DNA of 64,000 nucleotides from Vaginimicrobium propionicum (GTDB taxonomy: Bacteria > Actinomycetota > Actinomycetes > Propionibacteriales > Propionibacteriaceae): NCBI RefSeq assembly GCF_900155645.1, contig NZ_LT706985.1:62001-126000 (forward strand), written 5' to 3'. The notes under the pieces are model-generated. The model worked only from the letters and a program-made list of their open reading frames with translations. It was not told the DNA's origin and searched no databases. Shown piece after piece: positions 44,793 through 62,429 of the stretch (positions within the stretch are counted from its first letter, which is position 1; every line of letters starts with the position of its first letter). The position numbers and the translations under genes are program-made.

Positions 44793-44813
44793 TTTGAGGT
44801 GGCCAGGTAGGGG

Positions 44814-44979: not shown

Positions 44980-44986
44980 GTAGGGG

Positions 44987-45049
44987 GTTAGGTCAGTTTA
45001 CAAGGAACTACACGCAGACCACGAAACGGGGGCTGCTGACAACAAATAA
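44987..45049 (+). pseudogene. Possible C-terminal gene remnant
   Basis: An open frame ending at TAA 45047-45049 reads ...VYKELHADHETGAADNK and is directly followed by a terminator-like hairpin. No start exists because the repeat lies upstream. It looks like the tail of a gene cut off by the repeat, but the stretch is too short to be sure. Confidence 0.3.
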
Positions 45050-45100
45050 AGGCTGAGTATCAAGCACCGGGAAAGTGCGAGATATTCAGCCTGTTTTGTT
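45050..45100 (+). terminator. Terminator after the gene remnant
   Basis: 12-bp stem with one G-U pair (45050-45061 with 45081-45092), an inner GCAC/GTGC helix, and GTTTTGTTG after it. It follows the remnant's stop by no bases, which supports that the remnant was once a real gene end. Confidence 0.6.
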
Positions 45101-45111
45101 GTCCGGGGTTT

Positions 45112-45133
45112 CCAAAGGGGCTTGCCCCTTTGG
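45112..45133 (+). repeat. Short hairpin CCAAAGGGG/CCCCTTTGG
   Basis: 10-bp stem with a 2-nt loop, of a kind frequent in intergenic DNA of Clostridia. It is probably part of the foreign DNA and marks a junction. Confidence 0.45.
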
Positions 45134-45296
45134 AGATATTGCGGGTATCCACGACACCCTTGCATATATCAATGAGATGATGGATCTGGAGGGGCTGGAG
45201 CTTCATCAGGACGGTGAATCCTATCCCAACGACTATTTTGAGAGCCCTCACTATGACTTCATCAGCCGTTGTGGCGGAGATGAGTGGCCGGAATAA
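45132..45296 (+). pseudogene. C-terminal fragment of an unrecognised gene
   Basis: Frame with acidic, gene-like content (INEMMDLEGLELHQDGESYP, then SRCGGDEWPE) ending at TAA 45294-45296. Upstream the frame runs into the short hairpin and has no ribosome site, so an N-terminal part is probably missing. Composition is unlike the host and similar to the next gene. Function not recognised. Confidence 0.4.
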
Positions 45297-46711: not shown

Positions 46712-46748
46712 TGGGATTCCCGCGCCCTCTGGAACGGAGGAAGATCTT

Positions 46749-47498
46749 ATGGACCAAAAAAACCTGACAGCAAAGCTCCTGGACCTGGTCGAAGGCCGGG
46801 AAACACCGGAAAGTTGGCGGAACTGGTGGGACGAGCATGAGCCGGAACTGGAAGCCCTGCTGAGTCGGGGTGAATTCCTGAAACTGAAGCCCTGCCGACA
46901 CGGCTTTCAGTGGGTCCCGGTGTTTGGCAGCCAAAAGGGAGCCATCGCCATTCTGGAAAAGAGCGGCATAGCATTTGAAGCCAGCAATCTCTACCAGGAG
47001 CGGTATCTGGCCGAGCTGGACGCTTTCTGCAAGGAACAGGAGCGGGTGCAGCGGGAAAAGCAAAAGGAATTCAAGGCCAGCCACCCAGAACTATTTGGCC
47101 AATACCCCAAGTTTTGCAAGGCATTGGCAAAGGTGCTGGACCCCACGGATAAAATCCAGCCTGCCGCCGCGGAGGAACAGATCAGGGATCAAGAAAGCGT
47201 GCTGGACTTCACGCTCCCGTCCCAGGTGCGGGAGTTTTTCCTGCTGACCGCAGGTATCAATGTATCCACTGGCGTGGTTCTTACCCTTTCCGGGATGTTT
47301 GATTTGACCATCCATGGAGAGCGGTATTGTGTGCTGGGCGAGTTCTGGAAAGAAGCGGACGGCGACCAGCTCCTGCTCCGCCCCGGAGAGGATACCATCT
47401 GGTACTACGCCCATGAGCAGGACAAGGTAAGGCGCCTCTGCAATGATATGACAGAACTGCTGGAGAAGAAACTGGCGATCTATCTCAATGAACACTGA
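46749..47498 (+). CDS. SMI1/KNR4 (SUKH) family immunity protein
   Basis: Protein of 249 residues from ATG 46749, preceded by GGAGGAAG. The C-terminal about 130 residues follow the SUKH pattern: LPSQVREFFLLTAGINVSTG, a short hydrophobic strand region, and a closing KLAIYLNEH. The N-terminal about 110 residues are a charged helical extension of unknown role. SUKH proteins neutralise many polymorphic toxins by direct binding. No toxin gene is near. The start at 46668 is rejected since it overlaps the DUF4253 gene. Confidence 0.78.
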   Translation: MDQKNLTAKLLDLVEGRETPESWRNWWDEHEPELEALLSRGEFLKLKPCRHGFQWVPVFGSQKGAIAILEKSGIAFEASNLYQERYLAELDAFCKEQERVQREKQKEFKASHPELFGQYPKFCKALAKVLDPTDKIQPAAAEEQIRDQESVLDFTLPSQVREFFLLTAGINVSTGVVLTLSGMFDLTIHGERYCVLGEFWKEADGDQLLLRPGEDTIWYYAHEQDKVRRLCNDMTELLEKKLAIYLNEH

Positions 47499-47551
47499 AA
47501 ACATCTGAAGCGGAAACAAAGAAATCTTGGTGGAGGAAATAGAAAAACAAT

Positions 47552-47815
47552 ATGTACGGAGTATTTGAATTTTTAAAAGCACATTATCAATATGTGTTGA
47601 TAGCAGGCGGACTATTATTTTTAATAGGTGCGATAAGAGACTGGAAATGGGTGTATCAAGCAACAGGAGGGGATAAGGCACGCCATGCCTTTATCTTTGA
47701 AGTGTGGGGCGAGAAAGGTTACAGAGTTTTCATAGGTACATGTGGGCTTATACTTACGATTTGCGGTGTTGTGCTTTTAATGTTAGATAAAAGACAAATG
47801 AGTGAAAAGCAATAA
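47552..47815 (+). CDS. Imm17-like small membrane immunity protein
   Basis: Protein of 87 residues with two membrane helices (VLIAGGLLFLIGAIRDWKWV and GTCGLILTICGVVLLML) linked by a charged loop with EVWGEKGYRVFIG. This size and layout match the Imm17 family of polymorphic-toxin immunity proteins. TGGAGG precedes ATG 47552. Base composition turns AT-rich from here. Its end overlaps the next gene's GTG start by 14 bases. Confidence 0.7.
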   Translation: MYGVFEFLKAHYQYVLIAGGLLFLIGAIRDWKWVYQATGGDKARHAFIFEVWGEKGYRVFIGTCGLILTICGVVLLMLDKRQMSEKQ

Positions 47816-48470
47816 TAAAGAAATGGAACCCAGAAAATTATGTGAAGAAGCATGGCAAGAAATAGCAAGTAAATTCCCTGATTTTAAGGTGCTTGCTAAA
47901 GGCCAAAAATTAAAGAGAGTTGCTAAAAATAAAGATATTATTTTTGAAATATACTTTCAGGCAAGCAGGTACAATTGCGAATATAGCGTAAAATTTATTC
48001 CGCATATTGGTATTTACTCCAAATCCATAAAAAAGGTTGGTATCAATCATGGCCTTATATATGGTGGGGATTTAGGCTCGTTAAGTTCAGGAAAACCGCA
48101 TGAGTGGTGGCAACTTGCAGGTGCAAGCTATAAATATACTGTGGAAGAAGTAAGCAAGCTTATTAAAATACATATTATTCCAATTTTTGATTATTTTGAG
48201 AACACTCAAGCCAATATTGATAGAATTTTAGAAGGAAGTTGTACATCAGCTAGTTTGTTATACTATATGTACTATTTTGCTGGGAAAAATAAAGCACAGC
48301 AGTATTTCAATAAAATTCTCAAAGAAAATAAAATGAAAAGTAGGTATATTAGCTTTTATGAATCATTAAAAAGTATACCTACAGAAAATCTCAGTTTGAG
48401 TTATTCCGAATTTTCTGGAGCAGTTATGATTAAATTCGCATATCTGAATGGTATTGAAATAGAAAAATAA
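47802..48470 (+). CDS. DUF4304-like predicted immunity protein
   Basis: Cytosolic protein of 222 residues, Lys/Ile-rich as in low-GC Firmicutes. The central part (IIFEIYFQASRYNCEYSVKF, then GGDLGSLSSG and EWWQLAG) resembles DUF4304 proteins found in polymorphic-toxin immunity loci; the match is moderate. GTG 47802 gives the full frame; ATG 47823 is an alternative. Neither has a strong ribosome site. Confidence 0.6.
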   Translation: MKSNNKEMEPRKLCEEAWQEIASKFPDFKVLAKGQKLKRVAKNKDIIFEIYFQASRYNCEYSVKFIPHIGIYSKSIKKVGINHGLIYGGDLGSLSSGKPHEWWQLAGASYKYTVEEVSKLIKIHIIPIFDYFENTQANIDRILEGSCTSASLLYYMYYFAGKNKAQQYFNKILKENKMKSRYISFYESLKSIPTENLSLSYSEFSGAVMIKFAYLNGIEIEK

Positions 48471-48500
48471 AATTTATTAATGGGAAAAGGATAAAAACGA

Positions 48501-48598
48501 TGGGAAAAAGTATAATAACAAAACATACAACTTTCATCTTACAAATGAAATTATAGATGGATTTTTCGGAAAAGAAAATAGATTAACAATGAGACAAT
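48501..48598 (+). pseudogene. Short AT-rich gene remnant with frame change
   Basis: ATG 48501 begins a frame (MGKSIITKH) that soon stops, while the shifted frame continues as NFHLTNEIIDGFFGKENRL to TAA 48596-48598. Together they look like a fused or frameshifted leftover of another small AT-rich gene. Function not recognised. Confidence 0.4.
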
Positions 48599-48609
48599 AA
48601 GGAGTAATT

Positions 48610-49848
48610 ATGAAATATCAAAAAGAAAACAGGAAAGAATTTTTTGCGTATATAGACAAGCTTATAGACGAAGATAAGTATACAGAATGTATAGATGCAT
48701 TGGAAAGTATTTCAATCGGAGAAAGAGATTATAAGGCATGTTATCAGCTTGCTCGTGCATATCAAAACTTCGCTGTTATCGGTGACGATAATAAAGGAAT
48801 TCCTAATTTCATTGGTGATAAGATGTTGTTAAAATCCATAGACACTTTAAATTCAGTTAGAGCAGAGGGTAAAGACAAAGCGGAATGGAATATGCGTATG
48901 GCATATGGGTATCAGTATTTAGCAGATGAGGAAGAAAAAGCTATCCCCTATGCAATGCGCTGGGCGGAGCTTGATCCTGAGGATGAGAATGCTTTGGGAG
49001 TCGTAAAAGAATGTAAAGAAGAAGTGGAAAAAAGAAAGCAAAGCGTAAATGCGGCTACTGAGAGGGTTATAACTCAAGAAACTGCCGAAATTGATGAAGA
49101 TTGGGGCATTTATCTATGCAGAGCATTTGCCTGCGATTTGCCAGCTGTGATTAGGCTCAATTTAGCTCTTATGGACTTCGAGTCAACTTCTAACTACCCT
49201 AAAAGATTACGATTACAAATATTATATAAGAATGCTGATGACAACGGATTTCCTACAAGAGAGGAAGGGGAGTATTTATATCAGGTAGAAGACGCCGTGT
49301 TAGAGATTATTGAAAAACATGGAGATATTTTGGCAGGCGTAGTGAAATGCGACGAGCGTGTACATATCTTTGCCTATGCCAAGAATGAGTCGGGTTATGC
49401 AGATGAAATATCTGAGATGATATCAGAAAACTTCCCTGATTATGTATACACATTGGCAGCAGTTGAAGATAAGGACTGGAAAATGTATTTTAATGGACTT
49501 TATCCTGACAACTATGAATACCAAAGTATTATGAATATGAGGCTCATCGAGGCAATAAAAAATGATGGCGACAGCCTGGTACCAAGAATTCTTGAGCATT
49601 GTCTGTACTTTAAGACCGAAGAACAAAGAAAAGCATTTCTAACGAAAGTGATAGAAGAAGGGTTTCAAAAACTTGAATCGGAAAGTAATGATGACAGCGA
49701 AGCTTATGATACGGAATATTCATATCAACTTGTGGTCGGAAGAGAAGATGATTTTGAGAATATCGATGAAATTGTCTGGTATCTCATGGATTTGGCAGAA
49801 GAATATGACGGGGTCTATGATGGTTGGGGTTGTATTGCTGTGAAGTAG
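48610..49848 (+). CDS. TPR-DUF695-RraB domain protein, predicted immunity protein
   Basis: Protein of 412 residues. Residues 1-150 form TPR-like helices (CYQLARAYQNFAV, AIPYAMRWAELDPEDENAL). Residues about 160-300 resemble DUF695 (WGIYLCRAFACDLPAVIRLN, YTLAAVEDKDWKMYF). The last about 110 residues fit the RraB (ribonuclease E inhibitor-like) fold, with IKNDGDSLVPRILEHCLYF and YDGVYDGWGCIAVK. AAGGAG precedes ATG 48610. DUF695 and RraB-like domains occur in immunity genes, which may shield RNA or block toxin nucleases; this is inferred. AT-rich. Confidence 0.75.
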   Translation: MKYQKENRKEFFAYIDKLIDEDKYTECIDALESISIGERDYKACYQLARAYQNFAVIGDDNKGIPNFIGDKMLLKSIDTLNSVRAEGKDKAEWNMRMAYGYQYLADEEEKAIPYAMRWAELDPEDENALGVVKECKEEVEKRKQSVNAATERVITQETAEIDEDWGIYLCRAFACDLPAVIRLNLALMDFESTSNYPKRLRLQILYKNADDNGFPTREEGEYLYQVEDAVLEIIEKHGDILAGVVKCDERVHIFAYAKNESGYADEISEMISENFPDYVYTLAAVEDKDWKMYFNGLYPDNYEYQSIMNMRLIEAIKNDGDSLVPRILEHCLYFKTEEQRKAFLTKVIEEGFQKLESESNDDSEAYDTEYSYQLVVGREDDFENIDEIVWYLMDLAEEYDGVYDGWGCIAVK

Positions 49849-49873
49849 CTTAGGCATTTATGGTAAAGGTGAA

Positions 49874-50311
49874 ATGATGATGGATCTGTCCATAAAGGAA
49901 ATAAGCATAGAAAATGAAAAAATCAACAGAGATAAATTTTTTTCGGTAGGGTTTTGCCCAGAAATGGAGCGGTATCTACTTTGCGTTCATATTTCGTGGG
50001 TTGTGGGATATGACCGGTATTATGCTATAGATGCGGAAGATATAATGCTCTATGAAGAAAGTCCGGATGAATTTTGTCAAAAATATGCAAGGGAAATTAA
50101 CGCTTACAGAACAGAGAGACTGCTTGGCGCAGGAGCATTAAGAGATTATGATTTTAGATGTTTACCGGATGAGATATTAAAGAATTTGGATGGATACCCA
50201 TCATTCAAGGGATATTGTTATACAAACGAAATGCTTTATGCCCAAATAAAGATAGATGATAGTTCCTTTACTATTCCACCAATTCGTGATGAAAAACAGA
50301 TGGATTGCTAA
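49874..50311 (+). CDS. Hypothetical protein in immunity island
   Basis: Acidic cytosolic protein of 145 residues, AT-rich codons, no recognised domain. Features include EMERYLLCVHISWVVGYDRY and a closing DDSSFTIPPIRDEKQMDC. ATG codons at 49874, 49877 and 49880 are all possible; AAAGGTG lies upstream. Size, charge and location suggest another immunity protein, but this is inference from context. Confidence 0.65.
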   Translation: MMMDLSIKEISIENEKINRDKFFSVGFCPEMERYLLCVHISWVVGYDRYYAIDAEDIMLYEESPDEFCQKYAREINAYRTERLLGAGALRDYDFRCLPDEILKNLDGYPSFKGYCYTNEMLYAQIKIDDSSFTIPPIRDEKQMDC

Positions 50312-50585
50312 AATAAAGAAATTGAGGGCTTTTGCTTGCAAAGTGTAGTGTGTTATACGCTCTGTCGGCGTTGCCGTAAAAATGCCGTTGCCGCCGGGGA
50401 GGGCAAGGGCATTTGAAGCGGCAGGAAAACAGGACTGTGATTGTGTGGCGTGGAGCCGCAAGCGCAGGACTGGTTTCGTCAGTAGACAGAGAGTATATGA
50501 AAGCCCCCGGCCCTCGTCCAACGTCGGACTACGGGACAAAATATCCCGAACTTGTGAAAACAATTTTGATAAGCATGCGTACTTT
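50312..50585. other. Gene-poor junction with mosaic composition
   Basis: Short ORFs on both strands have no convincing start or domain. The stretch is GC-richer than the gene before it. It looks like a joint between pieces of different origin, perhaps from a Firmicutes mobile element, though nothing specific is recognised. Confidence 0.4.
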
Positions 50586-50864
50586 TCAACCTTTACCTTT
50601 TTTGAAAGAACCACTACCACGATAAGTGTTGACAACACAGGTAAAGACTTGTCCACAGTGTTTGCACCGTACCATGTGAACCATAATTTCATCCGCCCAG
50701 CCATCTTCGGTCTTTACCTGATTCAACGGGCAAGTGGATTCTTCCTCAAGCAGTTCAAAACCGCCATTTGTCACAAGCTGTTGGATGTATTCGATACACG
50801 CCAGATAATCTTTCGGTGCGTTAAATCTCTTCCATTTCTGAATATTATGACAGTAGTCACACAT
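50586..50864 (-). CDS. Small protein with two CXXC motifs
   Basis: Protein of 92 residues from ATG 50864, chosen because GGAGGG lies 7 bases upstream; an in-frame ATG at 50885 overlaps that site. Two CXXC pairs, CDYC near the N-terminus and CKHC near residue 69, could bind one zinc ion. The middle (DYLACIEYIQQLVTNGGFEL) is helical. Found as a stand-alone small zinc-binding protein in immunity clusters of Firmicutes; function here unknown. Confidence 0.65.
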   Translation of the reverse strand: MCDYCHNIQKWKRFNAPKDYLACIEYIQQLVTNGGFELLEEESTCPLNQVKTEDGWADEIMVHMVRCKHCGQVFTCVVNTYRGSGSFKKGKG

Positions 50865-50906
50865 TGCAACTCCCTCCATAACCAAATTTTTCTAAATTTT
50901 GAAATG

Positions 50907-50936
50907 GGCGGGAAGCCGTTTTAGGGCTTTCCCGCC
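50907..50936 (-). terminator. Hairpin downstream of the minus-strand gene at 51073
   Basis: Stem GGCGGGAA(G)CC / GG(C)TTTCCCGCC between 50907 and 50936 with one unpaired base. On the minus strand it lies about 140 bp after the gene ending at 51073 and before the CXXC gene. Confidence 0.5.
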
Positions 50937-51072
50937 TTGATTGCCCATTAGCAAAGACGGGCGGACTGTCAACGGCGGCACATTTATGCGCCGCTCATCT
51001 TGACCGTTGACTGGCTCGGCTGGCTTTGCTATCTTCCTGATACACAAGAATTGTTATCTATCTGTCCAAGAA

Positions 51073-51519
51073 TCAAAATAGTTTGCGCCAGTCATCTTCA
51101 ATAGCCTGTGGAATATGGTAACTTTCGTATTCAGGCATAAATCCCTCATGCCAAATATGAAATTTTAAGCCGCTAAACTCTGTAAAAATATGTTGCGCTC
51201 TTTTTATGGGAGATGGATAGTAGCAAAAATTTATATGCCCAGCGGTTGTCCACCTTTTTGCACTAAGGATAGTCGGTTCCTCGTCAACAAAACGATTATA
51301 TAATTTATTTTCTTTTGTTTTCCATGACATCAAATCATCATCGCCACAAAATAATGTCCAAACCACATCATTGCCAAAAACGCTTGGAAAATATTTTTGC
51401 TTTATTAAGTCCAGAAAAATATCGCTAAATGTAGTAGTTGGTTCAATAATGTATGTGCGGGTGTGGTCATCTACATCATCTGCCATACAAACACTTTCTC
51501 GACAAATTGACATATCCAC
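51073..51519 (-). CDS. Hypothetical protein in immunity island
   Basis: Protein of 148 residues, no membrane segment, no recognised domain. Aromatic- and acid-rich blocks such as VVWTLFCGDDDLMSW and FSGLKFHIWHEGFMPEYESY are typical of small immunity proteins. An AAGGGGG site lies upstream of the ATG. Its role is inferred only from neighbours and size. Confidence 0.6.
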   Translation of the reverse strand: MDMSICRESVCMADDVDDHTRTYIIEPTTTFSDIFLDLIKQKYFPSVFGNDVVWTLFCGDDDLMSWKTKENKLYNRFVDEEPTILSAKRWTTAGHINFCYYPSPIKRAQHIFTEFSGLKFHIWHEGFMPEYESYHIPQAIEDDWRKLF

Positions 51520-51588
51520 TCTTTATCCCCCTTCCTTTTTTAATTCAGATATTATCTTCACTCATACAACACCGCCTACACCCTTTGC

Positions 51589-51694
51589 TTACTTTCTTCC
51601 CCGCTGTGGGTTCGGATTTTTCAGCAAGTCCGACTTCTGTGCAATCTTTTTCAGCCACTTTTTCTCTTCTTCGGACAGCTTTTTCAAATTCAGC
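51589..51694 (-). pseudogene. C-terminal gene remnant cut by the repeat
   Basis: The minus-strand frame encodes about 34 residues (LNLKKLSEEEKKWLKKIAQK, then SDLLKNPNPQRGRK and a stop at 51589). It has good coding character but no start: at 51695 the repeat copy begins. The parent gene is unknown; the Lys/Glu-rich helix would fit a toxin or mobile-element protein tail. Confidence 0.55.
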
Positions 51695-51725
51695 TTGACG
51701 AGGGCGTTAGCCCGAGGATCACCCC
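51695..51725. repeat. Third copy of the island-flanking repeat
   Basis: TTGACGAGGGCGTTAGCCCG and the following GAGGATCACCCC are identical to the first part of both units at 44814 and 44898, in the same orientation. The match ends at 51725. With copy two it brackets the foreign genes (6.8 kb). Confidence 0.85.
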
Positions 51726-51928
51726 AATGGGGGTGGCGGTGAGTGGTTGCTTGATTCTTTTCACGTGATCCAGAACTGGTCTATTTTGGTGCGAAGTTAT
51801 TAACGTTGTCAGCGTACTACCGTAGGCGCGCACCTGCTAGAGATGGTCTTGAAACATTTAATATCGCGCTAAATCAATGCTATTGTGGACACGTAATCAT
51901 GATGATTGCGCGCGAAAGGATGATTCTG

Positions 51929-52183
51929 GTGGCTAACGTATCTTTTCGGACAGACGATGAGACGAAGGCTCAAGCTGCGGAGCTATTCCGTGATCTCGGT
52001 TTGGATATGAGCACTGCCATCAATATGTTCTTGAGGCAGTCGATTGCCAGCAACGGCATTCCGTTTACGCCGCACCGCGAAAATTTCGCAAGTGCGGTTG
52101 CTCGCGCACAAGCCGATTCTCGCACCGGAGCTTCGTTCAATAGCGTTGCTGAGCTAATGGCGGATCTTAATGAGGCTGACTAG
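51929..52183 (+). CDS. relB: RelB/DinJ family antitoxin
   Basis: Ribbon-helix-helix antitoxin of 84 residues from GTG 51929, with GAAAGGA 8 bases before. The N-terminus shows the RelB/DinJ pattern (VSFRTDDETKAQAAELFRDL and DMSTAINMFLRQSI). It would bind the following toxin and repress the operon. Its 3' end overlaps the toxin gene by 14 bases. Longer frames upstream have no similarity. Confidence 0.9.
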   Translation: MANVSFRTDDETKAQAAELFRDLGLDMSTAINMFLRQSIASNGIPFTPHRENFASAVARAQADSRTGASFNSVAELMADLNEAD

Positions 52184-52454
52184 CGTTTTCCGCACCTACC
52201 AGTTCAAGCGCGACGCTAAAGCGCCATTTAAGAAAAACTATGATGCCCAGAAGTTGGCGTCTGCCGTTGAAGCGTTGCTCGCCCAAGACCGTGATGGTTT
52301 GTGTACCCACTATCGCGACCATGCATTGCAGGGCAGTTGGAAAGGATATCGAGAAATCCACATCGAAGCAGACTGGCTATTGATATACCGCGTAGAGCGT
52401 AGCGAGTTGCTTCTGGTACTTACCCGAACCGGATCTCACGACGACCTGTTCTAA
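52170..52454 (+). CDS. yafQ: YafQ-family mRNA interferase toxin
   Basis: RelE-superfamily toxin of 94 residues that cleaves mRNA in the ribosome. The family words are present: RTYQFKRDAKAPFKKNYD, HALQGSWKGYREIHI and DWLLIYRV, and the C-terminus ends TGSHDDLF, with the catalytic His at residue 90. Paired with the antitoxin, so a complete type II module. Codon use is host-like. Confidence 0.92.
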   Translation: MRLTSVFRTYQFKRDAKAPFKKNYDAQKLASAVEALLAQDRDGLCTHYRDHALQGSWKGYREIHIEADWLLIYRVERSELLLVLTRTGSHDDLF

Positions 52455-52659
52455 TTATTCTCATCCTATAAGTGTCCACAGGCTTAACGGTAAGGCAGCT
52501 CCGCCTGCTGTCAAACGTGAGTATTTTTCTTGTCTTCATTCGCAGAAATTCTCACCCTTTTGGGTGCTTACAACGAAATTTCTGCTTGCTACTTTCAAGG
52601 TGTGGGCTACCAGAAGGCTCAACGAAACAGCAGTTTCTCTTAGAATCTAAGGAGTCGTC

Positions 52660-53040
52660 ATGACTTATCAACCTGTTCAACCGACAATGCCAGCCCCTGC
52701 CGCACCGAGTGTTAAGAAAAACATGGCTTTGACAGCTTTAATTCTGACCGTGGTGGCTTCAATTTTGATAATTTTGGGTTTTTTCTTGGCAGCTCAAGCA
52801 GGGGTGGAGGCTCTCAAGAACTTTGATTTGGACGCCGCCGAGGCTGCAGACAACAAGAGAATCATTTTCTTAGGGTTAGCGTCTCTAATGAACCTAGTAG
52901 CCTTTATCCTAGCTTTAATTGCTCTGATTAAATCCAAGCCTAAGACTATGCCACTTATAGTTTTTATAGTTGTGATTGTGCTGCCGTCTGTGGCTACGGG
53001 AATCGGTACTGCAATCCAAAACAGCATGTTGGGTATGTAG
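52660..53040 (+). CDS. Small membrane protein, three or four helices
   Basis: Protein of 126 residues: a Pro-rich N-terminus (QPVQPTMPAPAAPSV) followed by hydrophobic segments ALTALILTVVASILIILGFF, IIFLGLASLMNLVAFILALI and MPLIVFIVVIVLPSVATGIG. Similar to DUF4190-like small membrane proteins in actinobacteria, weakly. An AAGGAG site precedes ATG 52660. It is 90 bp before the SPFH gene and may belong to the same group. Confidence 0.65.
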   Translation: MTYQPVQPTMPAPAAPSVKKNMALTALILTVVASILIILGFFLAAQAGVEALKNFDLDAAEAADNKRIIFLGLASLMNLVAFILALIALIKSKPKTMPLIVFIVVIVLPSVATGIGTAIQNSMLGM

Positions 53041-53130
53041 GTCAAATGTGTTCCCGCTGTTGTGCCTATCGACACGCTGCACAAATCAGGGATTTTATCG
53101 TTTCGTTTAGTTAGAAAAGGTGGAATTGAC

Positions 53131-54336
53131 ATGGGTTTGATTCAGGCTGTGACTGGAGCTATTGGCTCTGCTGTGCAAGATCAGTGGCTGGATGCTATCA
53201 GCGCTCAAGATATGGGCGAGGGCATCGTATTTGTTCGCGGTCAGCAAATAAGAGGTAAAAATGCTGGCACCGGAGCCATTATCTCGGACGGCTCTAAAAT
53301 ACTGGTGTACGACAAGCAGGCGATGCTCATTACCGACTCCGGTAAAATCGTGGATTTCTCCACCGAGCCGGGAGCATACACATTTAACTCCGCAACTTCT
53401 CCCTCATTGTTTAATGGCAACTTCGAGGGGGCGCTTCGAGATACGTGGGAACGTTTCAAATTTGGTGGTGCACCGTCTGGGCAGCAGAAAGTATTTTTCG
53501 TAAATCTTCAAGAGATTAAGGGCATTAGATTTGGTACCCCAAATGCGATTCAATACTTCGACAATTTTTATAATGCCGAGCTGTTCTTGAGGGCGCATGG
53601 AACTTATTCTCTGCGAATTGTTGATCCCATAAAGTTCTACATCGAAGCTATCCCCAGGGACGCTGAGCGGGTTCACATTGACGACATCAAAGAGCAGTAC
53701 CAATCTGAATTCCTTGAAGCGTTTTCTGTGGCGCTAAACAAAATGAGCATTGATGGGATTCGCATTTCTCAAGTTCAAGCTCACGTCACCGAATTATCTC
53801 GCTACATGCGCGATGTTTTAGATCAGGAATGGGCGGAGCAACGAGGTATAGAAGTCCAAGCCGTAGGTGTAGCTTCAATCTCCTACGACGAGCAGTCTCG
53901 CAAGATGATTGACATGCGCAACCAAGGCGCAATGTTGCAAGACCCGTCAATCCGCGAAGGTTTCGTCCAGGGTGCGGTCGGTACCGGTATTCAAAATGCT
54001 GGCTCTAATCCTGCCGGCGCAGGCATGGCAATGATGGGTGTTGGTCTTGGTATGCAAGCTGGTGGCGGTTTTATGCAAGCTGCTTCTGCGTCTAATCAAG
54101 CCCAGATGGCAGCTCAGCAGGCAAACCAGCAACGGAATGAGACGAGTCCTGCCGGCTCACAGGCAGACGCCTGGAAATGTGAGTGTGGCGCGCAAAACAG
54201 CGGCAAGTTTTGTTCTAACTGCGGCACTCCTAAGCCTGCGGTACCTATTCAAGGTGGGTTCTGTTCAAATTGTGGCAGCCAACTTCCAGATCCTAAACCG
54301 AAGTTCTGCCCCCAGTGTGGGACGCCAGTGGCCTAG
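53131..54336 (+). CDS. SPFH domain / virion-core-like protein with zinc ribbons (YdjI-like)
   Basis: Protein of 401 residues from ATG 53131 (AAGGTGG upstream). Residues about 1-270 form an SPFH (stomatin/flotillin-like) region as in Bacillus YdjI: IVFVRGQQIRGKNAGTG, FGTPNAIQYFDNFYNAELFL and QEWAEQRGIEVQAVGVASI. A Met/Gly/Gln-rich linker follows, then two zinc ribbons (CECGAQNSGKFCSNCG and FCSNCGSQ...FCPQCG). No membrane helix. YdjI-type proteins localise to the membrane with YdjG/YdjH partners; the next two genes fit those partners. The frame start at 53062 is rejected for lack of similarity. Confidence 0.85.
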   Translation: MGLIQAVTGAIGSAVQDQWLDAISAQDMGEGIVFVRGQQIRGKNAGTGAIISDGSKILVYDKQAMLITDSGKIVDFSTEPGAYTFNSATSPSLFNGNFEGALRDTWERFKFGGAPSGQQKVFFVNLQEIKGIRFGTPNAIQYFDNFYNAELFLRAHGTYSLRIVDPIKFYIEAIPRDAERVHIDDIKEQYQSEFLEAFSVALNKMSIDGIRISQVQAHVTELSRYMRDVLDQEWAEQRGIEVQAVGVASISYDEQSRKMIDMRNQGAMLQDPSIREGFVQGAVGTGIQNAGSNPAGAGMAMMGVGLGMQAGGGFMQAASASNQAQMAAQQANQQRNETSPAGSQADAWKCECGAQNSGKFCSNCGTPKPAVPIQGGFCSNCGSQLPDPKPKFCPQCGTPVA

Positions 54337-54374
54337 CTGGTGCTAGCGGGTTTGGTTGTTGCCGACAGAGTATG

Positions 54375-54411
54375 AAGGTTTGAGAGCAAGAGTTTCTTGC
54401 TCTCAAACCTT
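54375..54411 (+). terminator. Terminator after the SPFH gene
   Basis: Perfect 17-bp stem with a 3-nt loop (54375-54391 and 54395-54411), then an A/T-rich stretch with a later TTTTTT. It separates the SPFH gene from the zinc-ribbon gene. Confidence 0.85.
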
Positions 54412-54557
54412 TTCAAATAGTTTTTTGGTGAATAGCTAAATTGCGGGGTCGAATTAGTCCTTTTGGGTGTTATGTCTGCTTCGATGCCGCTCTAGGTTTA
54501 TAGAAATCAAAGCGAAATTGGGGTTTTGATCCCGAAATTAAAGAAAGGGAGCTGATT

Positions 54558-55763
54558 GTGAGCGATGTGCAGTTGAAGTGTCCAGCTTGCGGCGCGCCCA
54601 TTAATTTTGATGTCCCCAGCGGAAAAATGAAATGCCACTTTTGTGGTGCCACTTTTTCTGTTGAAGAAGTCAATCAGTTTAACGGTATTTCCGCAGCGAA
54701 TCAGGAGTTGAATGCCGCCTATCAAGCTCAAAAGGCGAATGAGGCTTCTGCTATACCTGGCACACAACCCACTGCGGGCGCAGCTGGGGGAGATGGACAG
54801 GAATCTGTTAGTCCGGGCGCGGATCAAGCAGGATGGGTTGAACCACCGCCGACCTACTTGGATGAAGCTACCGGAGAGCAGATGGCTCAGTTTGAGTGCA
54901 ACTCTTGCGGTGGTGAAATCATTGGTTCGGCCGACATGGTCAGCGCTAAATGCCCCTGGTGTAATAACAACTTCGTGTCTACTAGGCAGTTGACTAGCAC
55001 TCGGGTTCCTGATCGGATGATCCCTTTCGGAATGACTAAAGAGCAGGCTGTGGCAGCCTTTAAGAAACAAGCCTCAAGTCTGAAACTGATTCCTAAGGCT
55101 TTTACGAGCGTAAGCGTTGATGATGTTCAGGGTGTTTATATTCCTTATTGGTTATATGACGCCAGTGTTTCCGGGTCGGCTAATTTCACTTGTGAGAACA
55201 CCCAAACTTGGCAAGATTCGGATTATACCTACACGAAGCACGATGTTTATGAAGTGTTTCGCAGTGCCGAGGTCGCTTTCCTTGATGTTCCGGTCTCTGG
55301 GACGACTAAGGTGACGGAAAATCTTACCGAGGCTATTGAGCCTTTTGATTACTCCACTTCGGTGCCTTTTTCTCCGGCCTATCTGACTGGTTTTATGACT
55401 AATAAGTACGATGTCAAAGCCGAAGAAGCTAACCCGCGAGCATTAGAGCGGATACGTCAATCTACTAAAAACGTCCTAAGTGATTCAGTTAGCGAATACG
55501 ACAGTGTGAAAATGACTGGCTCTAGCATCCAACCGACTTTCGGTGACCTCGAATATGTCTTTTTGCCGGTGTGGCTGTTGAACGTCACTTTCCAAAACAA
55601 GAACTACAACTACGCTATGAACGGACAAACCGGCAAATTCGTTGGTACCTTCCCGGTATCTATGGTCAAGTATTGGGTCGGGTTATTGAGTATCGCCATC
55701 ACGATGGCCATAATCTTGGGATTCATTCTGATCCTATTTGTTATGCCATGGTGGTTCAGTTAA
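54558..55763 (+). CDS. TFIIB-type zinc-ribbon membrane protein (YdjG-like)
   Basis: Protein of 401 residues starting at GTG 54558 with AAAGGGAG upstream. Two zinc-binding ribbons lie at the start: CPACGAPINF...CHFCGATF and CNSCGGEIIGSADMVSAKCP. A linker and a beta-rich central domain follow (IPKAFTSVSVDDVQGVYIPY, YDSVKMTGSSIQPTFGDLEY), and one C-terminal membrane helix (IAITMAIILGFILILFVM). This resembles the YdjG family. It likely anchors the SPFH protein to the membrane. Confidence 0.82.
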   Translation: MSDVQLKCPACGAPINFDVPSGKMKCHFCGATFSVEEVNQFNGISAANQELNAAYQAQKANEASAIPGTQPTAGAAGGDGQESVSPGADQAGWVEPPPTYLDEATGEQMAQFECNSCGGEIIGSADMVSAKCPWCNNNFVSTRQLTSTRVPDRMIPFGMTKEQAVAAFKKQASSLKLIPKAFTSVSVDDVQGVYIPYWLYDASVSGSANFTCENTQTWQDSDYTYTKHDVYEVFRSAEVAFLDVPVSGTTKVTENLTEAIEPFDYSTSVPFSPAYLTGFMTNKYDVKAEEANPRALERIRQSTKNVLSDSVSEYDSVKMTGSSIQPTFGDLEYVFLPVWLLNVTFQNKNYNYAMNGQTGKFVGTFPVSMVKYWVGLLSIAITMAIILGFILILFVMPWWFS

Positions 55764-55779
55764 AAGGGGATTGACACTA

Positions 55780-56754
55780 ATGAATAGTTTTAAGAAATTG
55801 GCTTTCGCGCTTGTTAGCGCGGTCTTGGTGTTCTTCCCCGTGTTGGGCTTAGGCATCCCAGAGGCAAGTGGAGCACCAGCCGATGTGCCAGAAGTCTGGC
55901 CACTGCAATTAGCGCCCAAAGTAACTTTTCCAGAACAGGCTCCTACAGATGACGAAATTATCGAGTTCTCTGATGAAGAAGTTCCTTTCGTAGGTGGTCA
56001 AGAAGATGTTGAGTCTGCGTCACCATTCATCCGTGACCATTCCGAGATTTTTTCCAGCAGTAAATTGTCAGACTGGGAAGAACAGCTGAGCGCATTGGCT
56101 GACCAATATGGCATTGCGCCTTATGTCGTGACTGTTGATAGTTTCCAATACCTCAGCCCAGAGCAATGGGGTGCAAATTATTACAACGCTAATCAGCTAG
56201 GCCTAGGGGTAGATTCAGCCGATGGCGTCATCATGATTATTAACCCTGTGACAAGGGATTTATGGTTTTTGGGGCATGGTGAAGGCGAAAATGCTCTTAC
56301 CCCTTACGGTATTGACAAGTTGTACGATAGGGTGAAAAACCCTCTTGGTGACGATGACTGGGACTCGGGTCTGGACGTCTATATTGCAGAGATCACCGAC
56401 TACCTGGTTCAGTGGGAAGCCGGGACACCCTATGACGAAGACCATCCGGTTCCTAATCGAATGACGTCGGAGTCCACAGGGGCGGGCGCCCTATTGGCAG
56501 TGATCCTTGGGGCGGTAATCGGCTTTTTGGTTATGAGGCGGTTGAAGGATAAGCATGATACTGCCCAAGTGCAAGGCGATGCCGCTAGCTACATTGTTTC
56601 CGGTTCTAGTCAGATTACTGGTGCTAGAGACAATTTTGTAAACACCTACACAACGCAGGTGGCTCGTCCTAAAGAAAGCAAGTCCGATTCATCCAGTGGT
56701 CATACATTCAGTTCTGGTGGCACTTCTTTCAGCTCGGGAGGCGGCAAATTCTAA
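55780..56754 (+). CDS. DUF5129/TPM domain membrane protein (YdjH-like)
   Basis: Secreted/membrane protein of 324 residues from ATG 55780. It has a signal peptide (about residues 1-30) and a TPM/DUF5129 region (SDWEEQLSALADQYGIAPYV, GLGVDSADGVIMIINPVTRD, GYG-like loop, WDSGLDVYIAEI). A membrane helix near residues 245-265 follows, then a Ser/Gly-rich tail ending in SSGGGKF. YdjH of Bacillus carries the same TPM type. It lies 16 bp after the zinc-ribbon gene. Start at 55738 is rejected as it overlaps the neighbour and lacks a signal. Confidence 0.82.
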   Translation: MNSFKKLAFALVSAVLVFFPVLGLGIPEASGAPADVPEVWPLQLAPKVTFPEQAPTDDEIIEFSDEEVPFVGGQEDVESASPFIRDHSEIFSSSKLSDWEEQLSALADQYGIAPYVVTVDSFQYLSPEQWGANYYNANQLGLGVDSADGVIMIINPVTRDLWFLGHGEGENALTPYGIDKLYDRVKNPLGDDDWDSGLDVYIAEITDYLVQWEAGTPYDEDHPVPNRMTSESTGAGALLAVILGAVIGFLVMRRLKDKHDTAQVQGDAASYIVSGSSQITGARDNFVNTYTTQVARPKESKSDSSSGHTFSSGGTSFSSGGGKF

Positions 56755-56907: not shown

Positions 56908-57546
56908 TTGACTCGCATCACCATCGTGGAGGATCAAACAATCTTGCTTGATTCTCTAGCTGCAGCCATCGACGCGGAAGCAGATTTTACTGTTGTCGAT
57001 AAGTTGACGGATGCCGCGCTCATTCATAGTTCTGTGCGTCGGCATCCGCCAGATCTAGTGCTGATGGACGTGGTCACTGAGAACTCTTCGGGTTTGAAGG
57101 AATCCGCTAAGTTGAAGGCACAATATCCGAACATCAAGGTTGTAGTGTTTACTGCCATGCCTGATGCTGCTTTCGTCGAAGAAGCGCGAGAGGCGAAAGT
57201 TGATTCATTCACTTATAAGAATGTCTCCACTGCTGACCTGCTTTCTATACTTCGTGCGACCCTACAAGGGGTGTCTAATTTCCCCGAGTCAACCGCGCGG
57301 CCAAGTTTTGGGGCTAATGAACTCAATAAACGTGAGATGCAGGTGCTGCGTTTAGTCTGTGCTGGCTACTCTCGACGCGAAATCGCCAATCAGATGTTTT
57401 TGAGCGAAAACACTGTCAAATCCTATATTTCCCAGCTTCTCGCAAAGAGTGGTTTTACCTCTGTCGCGCGTCTGGCATTGTGGGCGGTGTCTAACGGTTA
57501 CATTGCCGCCCAGTCAAGCGATCCAAACTATGAACAAGATGTGTAA
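56908..57546 (+). CDS. NarL/LuxR-family response regulator
   Basis: Two-component response regulator of 212 residues from TTG 56908 (GGAAGAAG upstream). The receiver has phosphoacceptor Asp54 in LVLMDVVT and the switch Thr/Lys region (VVFTAM, TYKN). The C-terminal LuxR helix-turn-helix shows NKREMQVLRLVCAGYSRREI and FLSENTVKSYISQLLAKSGF. It is 14 bp before the 7TM sensor gene and follows the TPM gene by 153 bp, so it may regulate that cluster. Confidence 0.93.
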   Translation: MTRITIVEDQTILLDSLAAAIDAEADFTVVDKLTDAALIHSSVRRHPPDLVLMDVVTENSSGLKESAKLKAQYPNIKVVVFTAMPDAAFVEEAREAKVDSFTYKNVSTADLLSILRATLQGVSNFPESTARPSFGANELNKREMQVLRLVCAGYSRREIANQMFLSENTVKSYISQLLAKSGFTSVARLALWAVSNGYIAAQSSDPNYEQDV

Positions 57547-57560
57547 GGCCTTGAGCTGTA

Positions 57561-60149
57561 ATGACCGCTGCCTTTGCCTCACGTGTTCCTCCTAATCGAT
57601 TTCCGAGTTCTCCGTCTGTTGAATCAGTTGGCTCAACCTGGGTGCAAGATTGGCTGTTTCACCTTATTTTTTCCATACTTCTAGGTCTTTCCCTGCTGGG
57701 GTTAATTTTTGTGCCCCTGAGAACGGTCACTATTGAAACCAATAATGTGATTGCGGTGCCGAACGGTTTCGATTCACGGCTTAGCGATTTTTTTCGCGGT
57801 CAAGGGCTGACGGTTGAAAACCGTAGCGAATGGGCACTATTGAAAGAGTTTCGATCTGGGTCAACCTATGTAGTTACTAACGAAACTTTGGCCCATGCCG
57901 CGATGAAAGCTCAATCCGAAGCCACTTTCGACTATCTTTATCCCGAATCAGTGGTTTTGGCTAGCAAAAAGCCTCAAACTGAATTTATTACCGATATTCG
58001 CTGGCTGAGTGATAGCCCAGAGATTATTTATCTTGATCAAGGGGTTAGCCGTTTTGAGCTAATGAGTGTTTTGGCTCTCAATTCCAACCCAAACGATGAG
58101 GTGCAAACATTTTCGACCAAACAAGGCGCGCAATTGTTGCAAGGTCTGCGCCGGCAAGGACGTTTAAGAACTGGGTCTTCTCCTCAAGATCTGCAAAGAG
58201 CATTGGATCAAGGCTATCTTTGTTTAACGACTGATAGACGCAGCGTTCTTGCTACTTTGAACTCTTCAAGATTGCACTACGCCAAGTTTCCAACACTGAC
58301 CTTCAACATGGGCGTGTGGGCGCGTCAAAAGAGTAAGCCGGAGGGTCTGTTTTCCTTAGAAACTCCACCGCCGGAGTTTCTAAGTGCCGTCGATTATCCC
58401 TCATTATCTATGGATTTTAGGGAAAGTATCAATGCTGAACCCATTACTGAGCTGGCTGCTTTCGTACAATTCACCTGGGATCAGAGCTTTTCCAATGACA
58501 CCTATGGTGGTTCTTGGGAATGGGAAGATACTAATGAGGCCTACCAAATTGCGACGTTTATTGCTTTGCTAGGCCTGCTTAGCTTTTGGGCTGGCTGGCG
58601 ATTTTGGACTGCGACTTCTCTGTATGCGCGCAGAGCCGTCCTCGTTCAAGCTGGCGTCTTGAGTTTATGGATTTTGGCGCGCGTAATTAAACATGCCTTG
58701 CCCGGCGTCTATGAACGTTATGCCTGGTACTACTATTACGTCCCGATATATTCGACGATGACGATTTTTTTCTTCGTCATCTCCCACTCGTGCCGTCGAA
58801 AACCACCTGGCTATCTATTATTGCGCGCTTTCGTGATAGCGGTAGGTGCTGCCCTAATGCTCTTGGTATTTACAAATGATCTACACCACCTACTGCTGCG
58901 TTTCGGACATGGGGAATCTGGGGTTGACTATCAATATGGGCCAGGCTACTACGCATACTATCTAGCTGTAGTTGCTGTCTTCTTTATGATCCTCTATGTA
59001 GCTCTTTGGGGTTTTAAGGGCAAACGATTACGGCTGTTGCTAGGTCTAGGTGTGTTGTTTGCTTTTATAGTGGCTTACTCGCTCGCTTACACCATGCGGG
59101 TGCCTTTTATTCGAGCCACTGAGAATGTGCAAATTTATTGCATTTATTTCTTATTCGCCTGGGAAATACTGTTTTTTATAGGATTAATTCCTCAAAATCG
59201 TGGATATATACGGTTTTTCAAAAAATCAAAGCTCCCCATAGAAATTGTTGACTGCGATTGGAAACCTCGCTTCGTCACATCGGCGCCACTTAGTTTGGAC
59301 GAATCTGTAAGGCAACGGTTACAAGCAGGTGATAGCCCGGTGCTGGTATCTGAGAATACTGACGGCGTTACCCGAAAGCTGTACTGTCAGACACGTCCAG
59401 TAACTGCCGGTCATGTGATTTGGGAAACAGACGTCACTGCTGTGCAAGAACTTGAGATTTCATTGGCCGCTATTCGTGAGCGCGAAGCGCACCAAACTAA
59501 GGTTCTGTCTTCCGAATATGATGCTTTATTGCAGATGAAAGAGTCTGCTCAAGCACCACTGCTATATGACCGGCTTGACGAGCTAATGAATGGTGCCCTA
59601 GGTCGTGTGCAGGCTAACGCTCAACGACTGAACGCTAGTTTAGATAAACAAGAACTATTCGTGCTGTTGCGTAGCATCAAAATGGATTTAGGCTACGCAA
59701 AAAGGGCGGGTTTGCTAACTTTGCGGCACTTCGAGGATAAAGAAATTTCGGTAAATGCCGTAACGACATTGCTGAGCCAATCCTGCACTGATTTCTCATA
59801 CGCTAACGCCTTGGCTGGACTGCATGGCCCAACTAGTGGGGTAATCCGATCTGATTTGGCACTGCGTTGCTTAGAAGGTTTACATCGTGGGTTAGCGTGC
59901 TTGGTTAGTTTTCCAGATATTGCGGTATTCATTAATTTTGTGGTTAGTGCGGATGGTCAGGCGGCACAACTGAACTGGATCTTGGATATTTCCACAGATC
60001 AAGTTTGTTTTCTGGAGCCGGTATCGAGCTGGCCTGGAGCCGAAACTAGAACGAATCTGGAAGATGATGTCGTTAACCTGTGCATGAGTTTTAAGACCTC
60101 TGACAGTGAATCATTAGAGCTAACCGCTACCGAGGGGGAATCTCGGTGA
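57561..60149 (+). CDS. 7TM sensor protein with extracellular domain, kinase-like but apparently inactive
   Basis: Large membrane protein of 862 residues. One N-terminal helix (about 33-57) precedes an extracellular part (about 58-330) that faintly recalls solute-binding proteins. Seven helices follow (about 330-560), with TNDLHHLLLRFGHG typical of histidine-kinase N-terminal 7TM domains. The cytoplasmic region has a PAS-like part, a coiled coil (ISLAAIREREAHQTKVLSSE) and a degenerate dimerisation/ATPase-like part. I see no His-box such as HDT.AQ, no N-box and no G-box. It overlaps the kinase gene by 4 bases, so it is probably a partner receptor. Confidence 0.75.
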   Translation: MTAAFASRVPPNRFPSSPSVESVGSTWVQDWLFHLIFSILLGLSLLGLIFVPLRTVTIETNNVIAVPNGFDSRLSDFFRGQGLTVENRSEWALLKEFRSGSTYVVTNETLAHAAMKAQSEATFDYLYPESVVLASKKPQTEFITDIRWLSDSPEIIYLDQGVSRFELMSVLALNSNPNDEVQTFSTKQGAQLLQGLRRQGRLRTGSSPQDLQRALDQGYLCLTTDRRSVLATLNSSRLHYAKFPTLTFNMGVWARQKSKPEGLFSLETPPPEFLSAVDYPSLSMDFRESINAEPITELAAFVQFTWDQSFSNDTYGGSWEWEDTNEAYQIATFIALLGLLSFWAGWRFWTATSLYARRAVLVQAGVLSLWILARVIKHALPGVYERYAWYYYYVPIYSTMTIFFFVISHSCRRKPPGYLLLRAFVIAVGAALMLLVFTNDLHHLLLRFGHGESGVDYQYGPGYYAYYLAVVAVFFMILYVALWGFKGKRLRLLLGLGVLFAFIVAYSLAYTMRVPFIRATENVQIYCIYFLFAWEILFFIGLIPQNRGYIRFFKKSKLPIEIVDCDWKPRFVTSAPLSLDESVRQRLQAGDSPVLVSENTDGVTRKLYCQTRPVTAGHVIWETDVTAVQELEISLAAIREREAHQTKVLSSEYDALLQMKESAQAPLLYDRLDELMNGALGRVQANAQRLNASLDKQELFVLLRSIKMDLGYAKRAGLLTLRHFEDKEISVNAVTTLLSQSCTDFSYANALAGLHGPTSGVIRSDLALRCLEGLHRGLACLVSFPDIAVFINFVVSADGQAAQLNWILDISTDQVCFLEPVSSWPGAETRTNLEDDVVNLCMSFKTSDSESLELTATEGESR

Positions 60150-61585
60150 GCACACTACTTTTCAGTCTTACGCCAGCCCAGCTAGCTGCAGCCACAGCAC
60201 AAATGATTATTGGTTTATTGGCTGCGTGCATCTTGACGATGAGCCAGTGGGTTATTCATCGCCGACGTTTGGCTACCGCTTTTTTGCTGAGTGTGGCAGT
60301 GCTGCTGTCTTTTTACACGTGGGCTTTCGCTGTTGTTCTTATTCACTCCCAAGCAGGAATTTTTGTCCTCAACGACCAAAACTTTGGTTGGTTCGTAATT
60401 GTGTGTCTGGGTTTAGGATTTGCCTTACTGACAACGACTTACCGCTACGCTACTGCGCCGCTATTGGTAACCTTAACCGCTTTTTTGCCCCCAATTTTGA
60501 GTATCGGTGGTTCGCGGGTGCTCTTAGCTGCAGGAGCATTTTCTACCTCTTGGTTGTGCGTCCAAGTTTGGCGGGAAGGGCAGCTCTTGCGTCGAGACTT
60601 AAGCCATTTCAGTATTAAAGAAGCCTTGGACTGGCTCGAGCACGGCGTACTATTTTCTGACTCCCACGGGCACAACAAGCTAGTTAATACCGCGATGGAT
60701 AGGCTTCTCGAAAGCCTAGGGCTAACGTCACTGTCTCGCTATCAGATTTTAGGTGCGCAGCTTCGTCAGATTGCAACTGACAAAATAGGGGCATACCAAG
60801 ATAAAACCCCAAACGATAGTTTGAGTAAAAAGTCTGGTGATGTCAGCGAAATTTTTCGGGTAACTGACCCCAAGAAACGAACCTGGATGCTGGAACGCAC
60901 TCGGATTGCTGATAGACGTCACTCTTGGACTCAACTTCTTGCCTTAGACGTCAGCGAGTATATGGTTTTAAGTCAAGCTCTCTCGGACGAAATCGAAGGG
61001 TTGCAGGTTCGTCAACGTAAGTTAGCTTTAGAGACTGCACGGTTGAATGAAGCCTTGTCAAAACGCCTAGTTTTGAAAACTAGATCCTCAATTCATGACA
61101 CGATCGCCCAACGAATCTCTTTCGTGCATAGATTCTTAGAAGATGGCGTCCTAGATAACGAACGCTTGGGTCAACTCCAACAATTGTTGGTCAATTTACC
61201 TACTGATCTGAGCCACAATCGTGCTCAAATCCCTCCGAAAGTTTGGCTTACTACCTTGCAGGAGTTAGCGGTAGCTGCCGAATTGGATCTACGCATTTAC
61301 GGGATGTTGCCAGCTGAGGATGATAAGGCTCACTTATTTGTGCAAGTGCTACGAGAAGCTATAACAAACGTACTCATTCATACTGCTTCTACTGAAATGG
61401 AAGCCCGATTATGGGAAGACTCCAGGGGTTATTGGTTGGAAGTGTCTAATCCCGGTGCTGTTGCCACTAATCCAGCTTATGGCACCGGGCTGAGCAGCTT
61501 GGAGTCACGTTTAGAAGCAGCTGGCGGCTCATTGTCAGTATTCATCAGGCCACGTTTTACTTTGCGCGCCCGGTTGCCGCACTAG
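60146..61585 (+). CDS. NarX-type sensor histidine kinase
   Basis: Kinase of 479 residues: five or six N-terminal helices (about 10-150), a PAS-like segment (DWLEHGVLFSDSHGHNKLVN), a HisKA_3 dimerisation domain with His317 in SSIHDTIAQRIS, and a HATPase domain with N-box REAITNVLIH (Asn408) and G-box GTGLSSLESRL. It should phosphorylate the response regulator encoded upstream. Its start overlaps the 7TM sensor gene; coupling suggests they act as a pair. Confidence 0.9.
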   Translation: MSTLLFSLTPAQLAAATAQMIIGLLAACILTMSQWVIHRRRLATAFLLSVAVLLSFYTWAFAVVLIHSQAGIFVLNDQNFGWFVIVCLGLGFALLTTTYRYATAPLLVTLTAFLPPILSIGGSRVLLAAGAFSTSWLCVQVWREGQLLRRDLSHFSIKEALDWLEHGVLFSDSHGHNKLVNTAMDRLLESLGLTSLSRYQILGAQLRQIATDKIGAYQDKTPNDSLSKKSGDVSEIFRVTDPKKRTWMLERTRIADRRHSWTQLLALDVSEYMVLSQALSDEIEGLQVRQRKLALETARLNEALSKRLVLKTRSSIHDTIAQRISFVHRFLEDGVLDNERLGQLQQLLVNLPTDLSHNRAQIPPKVWLTTLQELAVAAELDLRIYGMLPAEDDKAHLFVQVLREAITNVLIHTASTEMEARLWEDSRGYWLEVSNPGAVATNPAYGTGLSSLESRLEAAGGSLSVFIRPRFTLRARLPH

Positions 61586-61688: not shown

Positions 61689-61723
61689 GGGCAAAACCGT
61701 ACTTTTGGGTGATGGCAAACCGT
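61689..61723 (+). promoter_or_regulatory. Direct repeats upstream of the lipoprotein gene
   Basis: GGCAAAACCGTA (61689-61700) and GGCAAACCGTA (61713-61723) start 24 bp apart, about two helical turns, 74 bp before the lipoprotein ATG. They could be tandem binding sites for the nearby response regulator. The rest of 61586-61796 shows no gene. Confidence 0.4.
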
Positions 61724-61796: not shown

Positions 61797-62429
61797 ATGA
61801 AAAAGTTTCTTGCACTATTGGGTGCCTGTGTCCTGGCTCTGAGTCTGTCTTGTTGCGGAGGGGATAAGGAAGAACCTAAACCGGAAACTTCGGCTTCCGT
61901 AGCGGGAGGGTCTGCCTCGGCCGAAGACACGCAAAAAGCTGAAGTCCCTGACCACGAACCCGGCCTAATTTCCACCATCGAAGACGTAGTGCAGCCGGAG
62001 CAAGAGAATGCCGAAAAAACTGTTGATGATGCAGACGCTCTGGAACAGAAGTGGAAGGATGAGGGTAAGAAATATGCCGAAGCTAATGGGATTTCAACAT
62101 CTTTTGTCGGCCCGACTTTCACTACCTTTTCTTCGGACACAATCGAGAGCTACCGCTACTATCTGAATGCTAATGACGACTGGAAAGCTGGCGATAAAGT
62201 AAAGATTGATTTTTACTGCCAGACTGTGGAACCAGCCGTTATCAAAGTGTGGGTTGCCCCAGATACGGACGAGCAAAAGGGTCAGCTGACGGAAGTTATG
62301 TGCGGGGTAGATACTCCTGCTCACGCCTCTTGGGAGTACACCCTATCTGCAGACACAAATAACTTGCTGATCTCTCGGCACCAGGTGCCGGTTGAGGGCT
62401 TTATGATTACCGACTACACGAAGATGTAG
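61797..62429 (+). CDS. Hypothetical lipoprotein
   Basis: Secreted lipoprotein of 210 residues with lipobox L-S-C region near residue 19-20 (LSLSCCG). An acidic low-complexity part follows (about 25-80, EEPKPETSASVAGGSASAED), then a globular domain with FVGPTFTTFSSDTIESYRYY and VEPAVIKVWVAPDTDEQKG. AAGGAAAG precedes the ATG. No known domain recognised. It may be the sensing or target partner of the two-component system upstream. A strong terminator follows. Confidence 0.75.
   Translation: MKKFLALLGACVLALSLSCCGGDKEEPKPETSASVAGGSASAEDTQKAEVPDHEPGLISTIEDVVQPEQENAEKTVDDADALEQKWKDEGKKYAEANGISTSFVGPTFTTFSSDTIESYRYYLNANDDWKAGDKVKIDFYCQTVEPAVIKVWVAPDTDEQKGQLTEVMCGVDTPAHASWEYTLSADTNNLLISRHQVPVEGFMITDYTKM

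Follow-up and report, generated by a model that had tools for sequence, protein, structure and literature searches.

A putative PspA-independent sister of the PspA-YdjGHI system beside a two-component cassette in Vaginimicrobium propionicum

The window analysed here comprises 64,000 nucleotides (nt) of Vaginimicrobium propionicum (NZ_LT706985.1, assembly GCF_900155645.1, forward-strand positions 62,001-126,000), and all coordinates refer to it. The range 52660-56754 holds four genes on the plus strand, three of which encode an SPFH protein, a double zinc ribbon membrane protein (ZnR), and a TPM protein (Table 1). All three genes of this trio are intact. The SPFH protein is recognised by PF13421 (E 2.6e-21, 76.6 bits against a cut-off of 24) and carries a C-terminal zinc ribbon (PF13240, E 7e-6). 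Its gene likely starts at ATG 53131 (MGLIQAV) rather than at GTG 53062. ZnR contains two CxxC...CxxC ribbons, and its sole hydrophobic helix lies at the C-terminus (residues 377-395). The third protein matches the TPM domain (PF04536, E 8.4e-18), with a helix at residues 234-252 and a conserved Ser/Gly tail. A prior sequence-only reading of the locus had also named DUF5129 for this protein, a family that gave no match.

The predicted structure of the SPFH protein (predicted local distance difference test, pLDDT, 77.6) matches stomatin best in Foldseek (E 1.6e-8), followed by HflK/C and prohibitin. No hydrophobic segment was found in this protein, which thus lacks a flotillin-type membrane anchor. 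ZnR was modelled with a pLDDT of 87.1; Foldseek returned no significant match for it and a second structural comparison gave only Z < 4. The relation of ZnR to NTF2/YpeB, proposed in PMC11237479, is neither confirmed nor excluded by these structure matches. Homologues of the TPM protein with solved structures exist, and its relatives include the chloroplast UPF0603 protein At1g54780 and the cyanobacterial protein Tll0404.

Table 1. Genes and sequence elements of the module and its surroundings (window coordinates; HK, histidine kinase).
Feature	Position	Strand	Remarks
SPFH (Band_7_1) protein, group I	53131..54336	+	C-terminal zinc ribbons; no membrane helix
ZnR, YdjG-like double zinc ribbon protein	54558..55763	+	beta-rich middle domain, one C-terminal membrane helix
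TPM, YdjH-like	55780..56754	+	signal-like N terminus, TPM domain, membrane helix, Ser/Gly tail to GGGKF
Small membrane protein, 126 aa	52660..53040	+	three hydrophobic helices; no family match; homologue adjoins module in Mobiluncus porci
NarL/LuxR-type response regulator	56908..57546	+	PF00072 E 3e-15, PF00196 E 1.9e-14
HK1, large sensor with HisKA_7TM-type membrane region	57561..60149	+	PF16927 E 2.2e-7; homologues pair with HK2 elsewhere
HK2, membrane histidine-kinase-like protein	60146..61585	+	assignment by family alignment
Lipoprotein-like 210-aa protein	61797..62429	+	possible regulon member, membership inferred
Perfect palindrome CACCCTTTTGGGTG (CACCC-N4-GGGTG)	52553..52566	.	~94 nt upstream of 52660 gene; candidate operator
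Degenerate palindrome copy, right part CCTTTTGGGTG intact	54456..54469	+	~89 nt upstream of ZnR start
ACTTTTGGGTG, weak site	61701..61711	+	one mismatch to intact half site; ~86 nt upstream of 61797 gene
Terminator-like hairpin, T-rich stretch after	54374..54412	+	3' of SPFH gene; fold -28 kcal/mol for 70 nt

The operon of Bacillus subtilis has the order pspA-ydjG-ydjH-ydjI (PMC8581546; PMC11237479). A lachnospiral operon of the same order (L185, pspA-ZnR-TPM-SPFH) stood in for the B. subtilis sequences as homology reference, its identity being supported by matches to PF04012 (E 7.6e-42), TPM (E 2.1e-17), and Band_7_1 (E 3.3e-45). The window proteins align with its members at 23% identity for SPFH (E 9e-16), 29% for ZnR (E 1e-65), and 19% for TPM (E 3e-6). 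By sequence comparison, SPFH, ZnR, and TPM are thus homologues of YdjI, YdjG, and YdjH, and the earlier proposal that they match the partners of PspA is borne out. They share with the B. subtilis proteins an SPFH domain with zinc ribbon and without a helix of its own, a double zinc ribbon followed by a helix, and a TPM domain followed by a helix. The module differs in that the gene order is I-G-H instead of F-G-H-I, the SPFH protein has a longer N-terminus and does not group with the PspA-linked SPFH proteins, and PspA is found neither in the operon nor in the genome. While the B. subtilis operon is controlled by sigma-W, the module neighbours a two-component system. The sequence-only reading had called for a genome-wide search for PspA, and this search yielded zero PF04012 matches in the 2,010,679-base single-contig genome, which is 99.95% complete. 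The same procedure detected PspA in 9 of 14 control genomes, including B. subtilis.

A genome scan for SPFH relatives revealed more than 550 encoded relatives, mainly in Clostridia but also in Streptococcus, Spirochaetota, Synergistota, and others, and 80 loci were examined. A query alignment built from seven diverse SPFH sequences proved too varied for the scan and was discarded. In a sample of 100 Lachnospiraceae genomes, the SPFH proteins fall into two clearly distinct groups. Those scoring above 200 bits, of the window type and mostly matched from residue 1, were assigned to group I, while those scoring 50-125 bits and mostly matched from about residue 53 were assigned to group II, the canonical YdjI type. 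None of the 46 group I loci in this sample lies within 6 kb of pspA, compared with 23 of 31 group II loci. PspA itself is uncommon where group I is present, with 5 of 41 such genomes encoding it against 28 of the 59 genomes that lack group I (Fisher p 2e-4, kinship ignored). Of 50 group I genomes from a broader set, 48 gave no PspA match above the Pfam cut-off (PF04012). The order SPFH-ZnR-TPM occurs in 49 of the 80 loci and ZnR-TPM-SPFH in 7, none of them with a match to an actinobacteria-trained pspA profile. A quick maximum-likelihood tree places the PspA-linked SPFH proteins in one group (support 97) and separates from them, with support 100, the side of the tree to which every group I row belongs. 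The window module, with SPFH, ZnR, and TPM adjacent and no pspA nearby, belongs to group I. Thus, of the earlier description as a ydjFGHI-like module minus PspA, the homology of the partners and the absence of PspA stand, whereas the identity as a ydj module does not, as the SPFH protein falls in a separate subfamily never found beside a sampled pspA.

Among the matches listed, the closest relative is Mobiluncus porci (SPFH 79-81% identical), and the nearest relatives outside Mobiluncus are clostridial. In clostridial SPFH-ZnR-TPM operons, the SPFH protein is up to 58% identical to that of the window. These operons contain the same three genes, mostly in the same order, and PspA is usually absent there; they differ from the window in that only some have a cassette of HK1, HK2, and response regulator, and some add DUF4428, DUF6935, or Tim44-like genes. 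A DUF4428 gene was considered as constant partner of the module and rejected, since a pattern search finds DUF4428 in only 6 of the 80 loci. The module was likely acquired by lateral transfer in this lineage, because in the quick tree the SPFH proteins of the window and M. porci nest within a mainly clostridial clade of 16 rows (support 98), away from other actinobacterial copies. A search of viral contigs gave no SPFH relative. Records labelled "phage" among the matches are unannotated, and many span no more than a few kb; they were not counted as support for a phage origin.

The sequence-only reading also pointed to the neighbouring two-component system, and a functional connection between it and the module appears supported, as the two systems co-locate recurrently in several lineages and a palindrome is shared before module genes. 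No kinase domain was recognised in HK1. HK2 has no Pfam match and only a weak NCBIfam match to MctS (E 0.005); members of its family are uncommon, and their scores exceed those of ordinary kinases by a wide margin. Of 19 unique HK2-family copies outside the window, seven have a group I SPFH gene within 10 kb, namely the two of M. porci and the copies in L074, L099, L108, G541, and G524. Excluding M. porci, 5 of 17 copies are linked, against about 0.13 expected (20 kb in about 2.7 Mb). The linkage extends to several Bacillota. The genes form a same-strand run in G541, as HK1-HK2-response regulator-SPFH-(zinc-ribbon protein)-ZnR-TPM, and in G524, as SPFH-ZnR-TPM-(two open reading frames)-HK1-HK2-response regulator. 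The HK1-HK2 pair occurs twice in tandem in M. porci and once in the window, where the regulator precedes it. In the M. porci locus (L198, 3283-17294), SPFH and ZnR-TPM have opposite orientations, with a DUF4428-like gene in between and the HK1-HK2 pairs following. Mere co-occurrence of cassette and module, as opposed to adjacency, is weak in Lachnospiraceae (7 of 41 versus 4 of 59). Cassettes without a linked SPFH gene (L189-L197) often lie near large secreted-looking proteins, and the cassette may therefore serve other outputs too.

The palindrome CACCC-N4-GGGTG precedes the first of the four genes and recurs in M. porci before the homologue of that gene, with two further copies in the divergent region between the SPFH and DUF4428 genes. 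The 20-kb M. porci region thus contains three exact palindromes, all in intergenic regions of the module, against 0.03 expected. By eye, the intergenic DNA around the palindrome is otherwise dissimilar between the window and M. porci. The 11-mer CCTTTTGGGTG occurs three times in the V. propionicum genome, twice at the module and once inside an open reading frame, and the second exact palindrome of the genome is likewise located within a coding frame. The palindrome is a candidate operator on which the adjacent response regulator may act. In the clostridial cassette loci, no shared inverted repeat was found.

Taken together, we consider it probable, though by no means firmly so, that the three genes represent a PspA-independent sister of PspA-YdjGHI, forming an SPFH membrane scaffold that is here probably under its own two-component control. 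In B. subtilis, membrane localisation of YdjI requires YdjG and YdjH, YdjI foci form without PspA, and deletion of ydjI leads to a more rigid membrane (PMC8581546). By analogy, the tail-anchored ZnR and the TPM protein, with its TPM domain outside and its Ser/Gly tail inside, would form a membrane platform, to which the soluble SPFH protein would be recruited, perhaps via zinc-ribbon contacts. The SPFH protein may then assemble into a sub-membrane scaffold and locally organise or fluidise the membrane without PspA. The response regulator and the two kinase-like proteins would tune expression via CACCC-N4-GGGTG when the membrane kinases sense a change in the envelope. In the simplest reading, group I would retain the functions of platform and scaffold and work without a PspA arm. 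Detailed topology, complex formation, membrane effect, stress signal, and biochemical action are all proposed here as predictions. The scaffold would resemble flotillin, HflK-HflC, and QmcA in its SPFH fold and presumed oligomeric membrane association, but it has zinc ribbons instead of a membrane anchor and no adjoining NfeD or FtsH partner. Control would resemble the Lia type known for PspA/LiaH, with a LuxR-type response regulator beside an envelope module, but the cassette has two kinase-like proteins, no LiaF-like neighbour, and no LiaH/PspA output.

The proposed PspA-independent scaffold has to be weighed against other accounts of the same genes. The trio could be what is left of a canonical PspA-YdjGHI system after loss of pspA, now working with another, cryptic ESCRT-III-like partner. 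The three proteins are clear homologues of PspA partners, the genome is small (2.01 Mb), and most genomes of the family and order encode PspA (45 of 57), all of which would suit such a loss. We nevertheless regard it as rather improbable: the SPFH subfamily was never found beside pspA in the 46 loci and is separated in the tree, so the trio is better not seen as a ydj operon that lost pspA, and PspA-free group I operons in several phyla make a loss in this lineage unnecessary. Nor does a constant fourth gene accompany the trio among the recurrent neighbours in the 80 loci.

Unlikely, yet deserving more credit than a loss of pspA, is a house-keeping factor for membrane-protein quality or assembly that resembles HflK/C or prohibitin, with the TPM protein acting as in photosystem II repair and no role in stress. 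The modelled SPFH fold, the TPM relatives At1g54780 and Tll0404, and a chaperone-like TPM role proposed by Ravi et al. (PMC11237479) are consistent with it. Conditional use fits better with the patchy presence (41 of 100 Lachnospiraceae), the linkage to signalling genes, and the recurrent palindrome, and the same 80 loci show no constantly linked protease gene. From the position beside the immunity island and the two-component system, the sequence-only reading further suggested a role in sensing or resisting membrane-active toxins, and such resistance is possible. In a third account, the module would sense or resist membrane-active bacteriocins jointly with the island. The module adjoins SMI1/KNR4, DUF4253, DUF4304, and DUF695 genes and a CPBP/Rce1-like protease, and the two-component system is adjacent. 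A joint function with the island appears very improbable, as immunity-type genes are not among the recurrent neighbours in 80 loci, the island is partly low in GC and has copies of one direct repeat close to each end, and no module protein has a confident match in a defence library; a link to the island is accordingly not supported.

Several observations weigh against a PspA-independent scaffold under two-component control. About nine in ten of the group I genomes sampled for the cassette are without it, so the link is not general. Only one perfect palindrome lies near the window module, the left half of the copy upstream of ZnR is degraded, and a search of the window allowing two mismatches does not exceed chance. 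The terminator-like hairpin stands between SPFH and ZnR-TPM, and suggests partly separate transcription units; it is not among the sites of a consensus terminator scan, and both consensus promoter and terminator scans gave results no better than chance. Eighteen of the 80 SPFH loci have no ZnR or TPM nearby, some at contig ends and several fully flanked. The exclusion of PspA rests on one profile and on statistics that ignore phylogeny, and many of the sampled genomes were assembled from metagenomes, so that parts may be missing. The open-access literature yielded no data on expression, localisation, or phenotype for group I.

More broadly, it is conceivable, though we put this forward only tentatively, that group I replaces PspA in many Bacillota and in relatives of Mobiluncus, in part under dedicated two-kinase control that in the Mobiluncus relatives would operate via CACCC-N4-GGGTG. 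YdjGHI are seen mainly as a membrane adaptor of PspA. An independent function of the trio is probable, because a large subfamily, widespread in gut Bacillota, seldom shares a genome with PspA and never adjoins pspA in the sampled loci; recruitment of the trio to PspA may have come later or in parallel. Group I may amount to a self-contained membrane-stress system that has escaped attention. The role of YdjGHI in the absence of PspA becomes directly testable, with a candidate regulator and operator named, and the findings suggest a way in which many PspA-lacking gut Clostridia may protect their membranes. No description of the clostridial SPFH-ZnR-TPM operons was found in open-access papers, and an earlier account may exist elsewhere.

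Further variation was seen among the SPFH loci. Tim44-like proteins are encoded directly upstream of group I SPFH genes (L036, L201, and others) and are a possible alternative partner to ZnR and TPM, and 9 of 80 loci encode DUF6935 proteins close to the module. In Enterococcus gallinarum (L199, NZ_CP116511), an SPFH-hypothetical-TPM operon is flanked by dnaX on one side and ribosomal protein genes on the other; the 484-kb record is labelled a plasmid, yet these neighbours are core-genome genes. Some actinobacterial SPFH relatives (L027, L028) have a SHOCT-like tail in place of zinc ribbons.

Upstream in the window, the immunity-like island (44800-51760) encodes DUF7832/DUF4253, SMI1_KNR4, DUF4304, and DUF695+RraB proteins, with a GC content of 35% at 48-50 kb. 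A repeat of ~32 nt, TTGACGAGGGCGTTAGCCCGAGGATCACCCC, has copies at 44807, 44891, and 51688, near both island ends. A RelB-YafQ type II toxin-antitoxin pair (51806-52454) lies directly upstream of the module.

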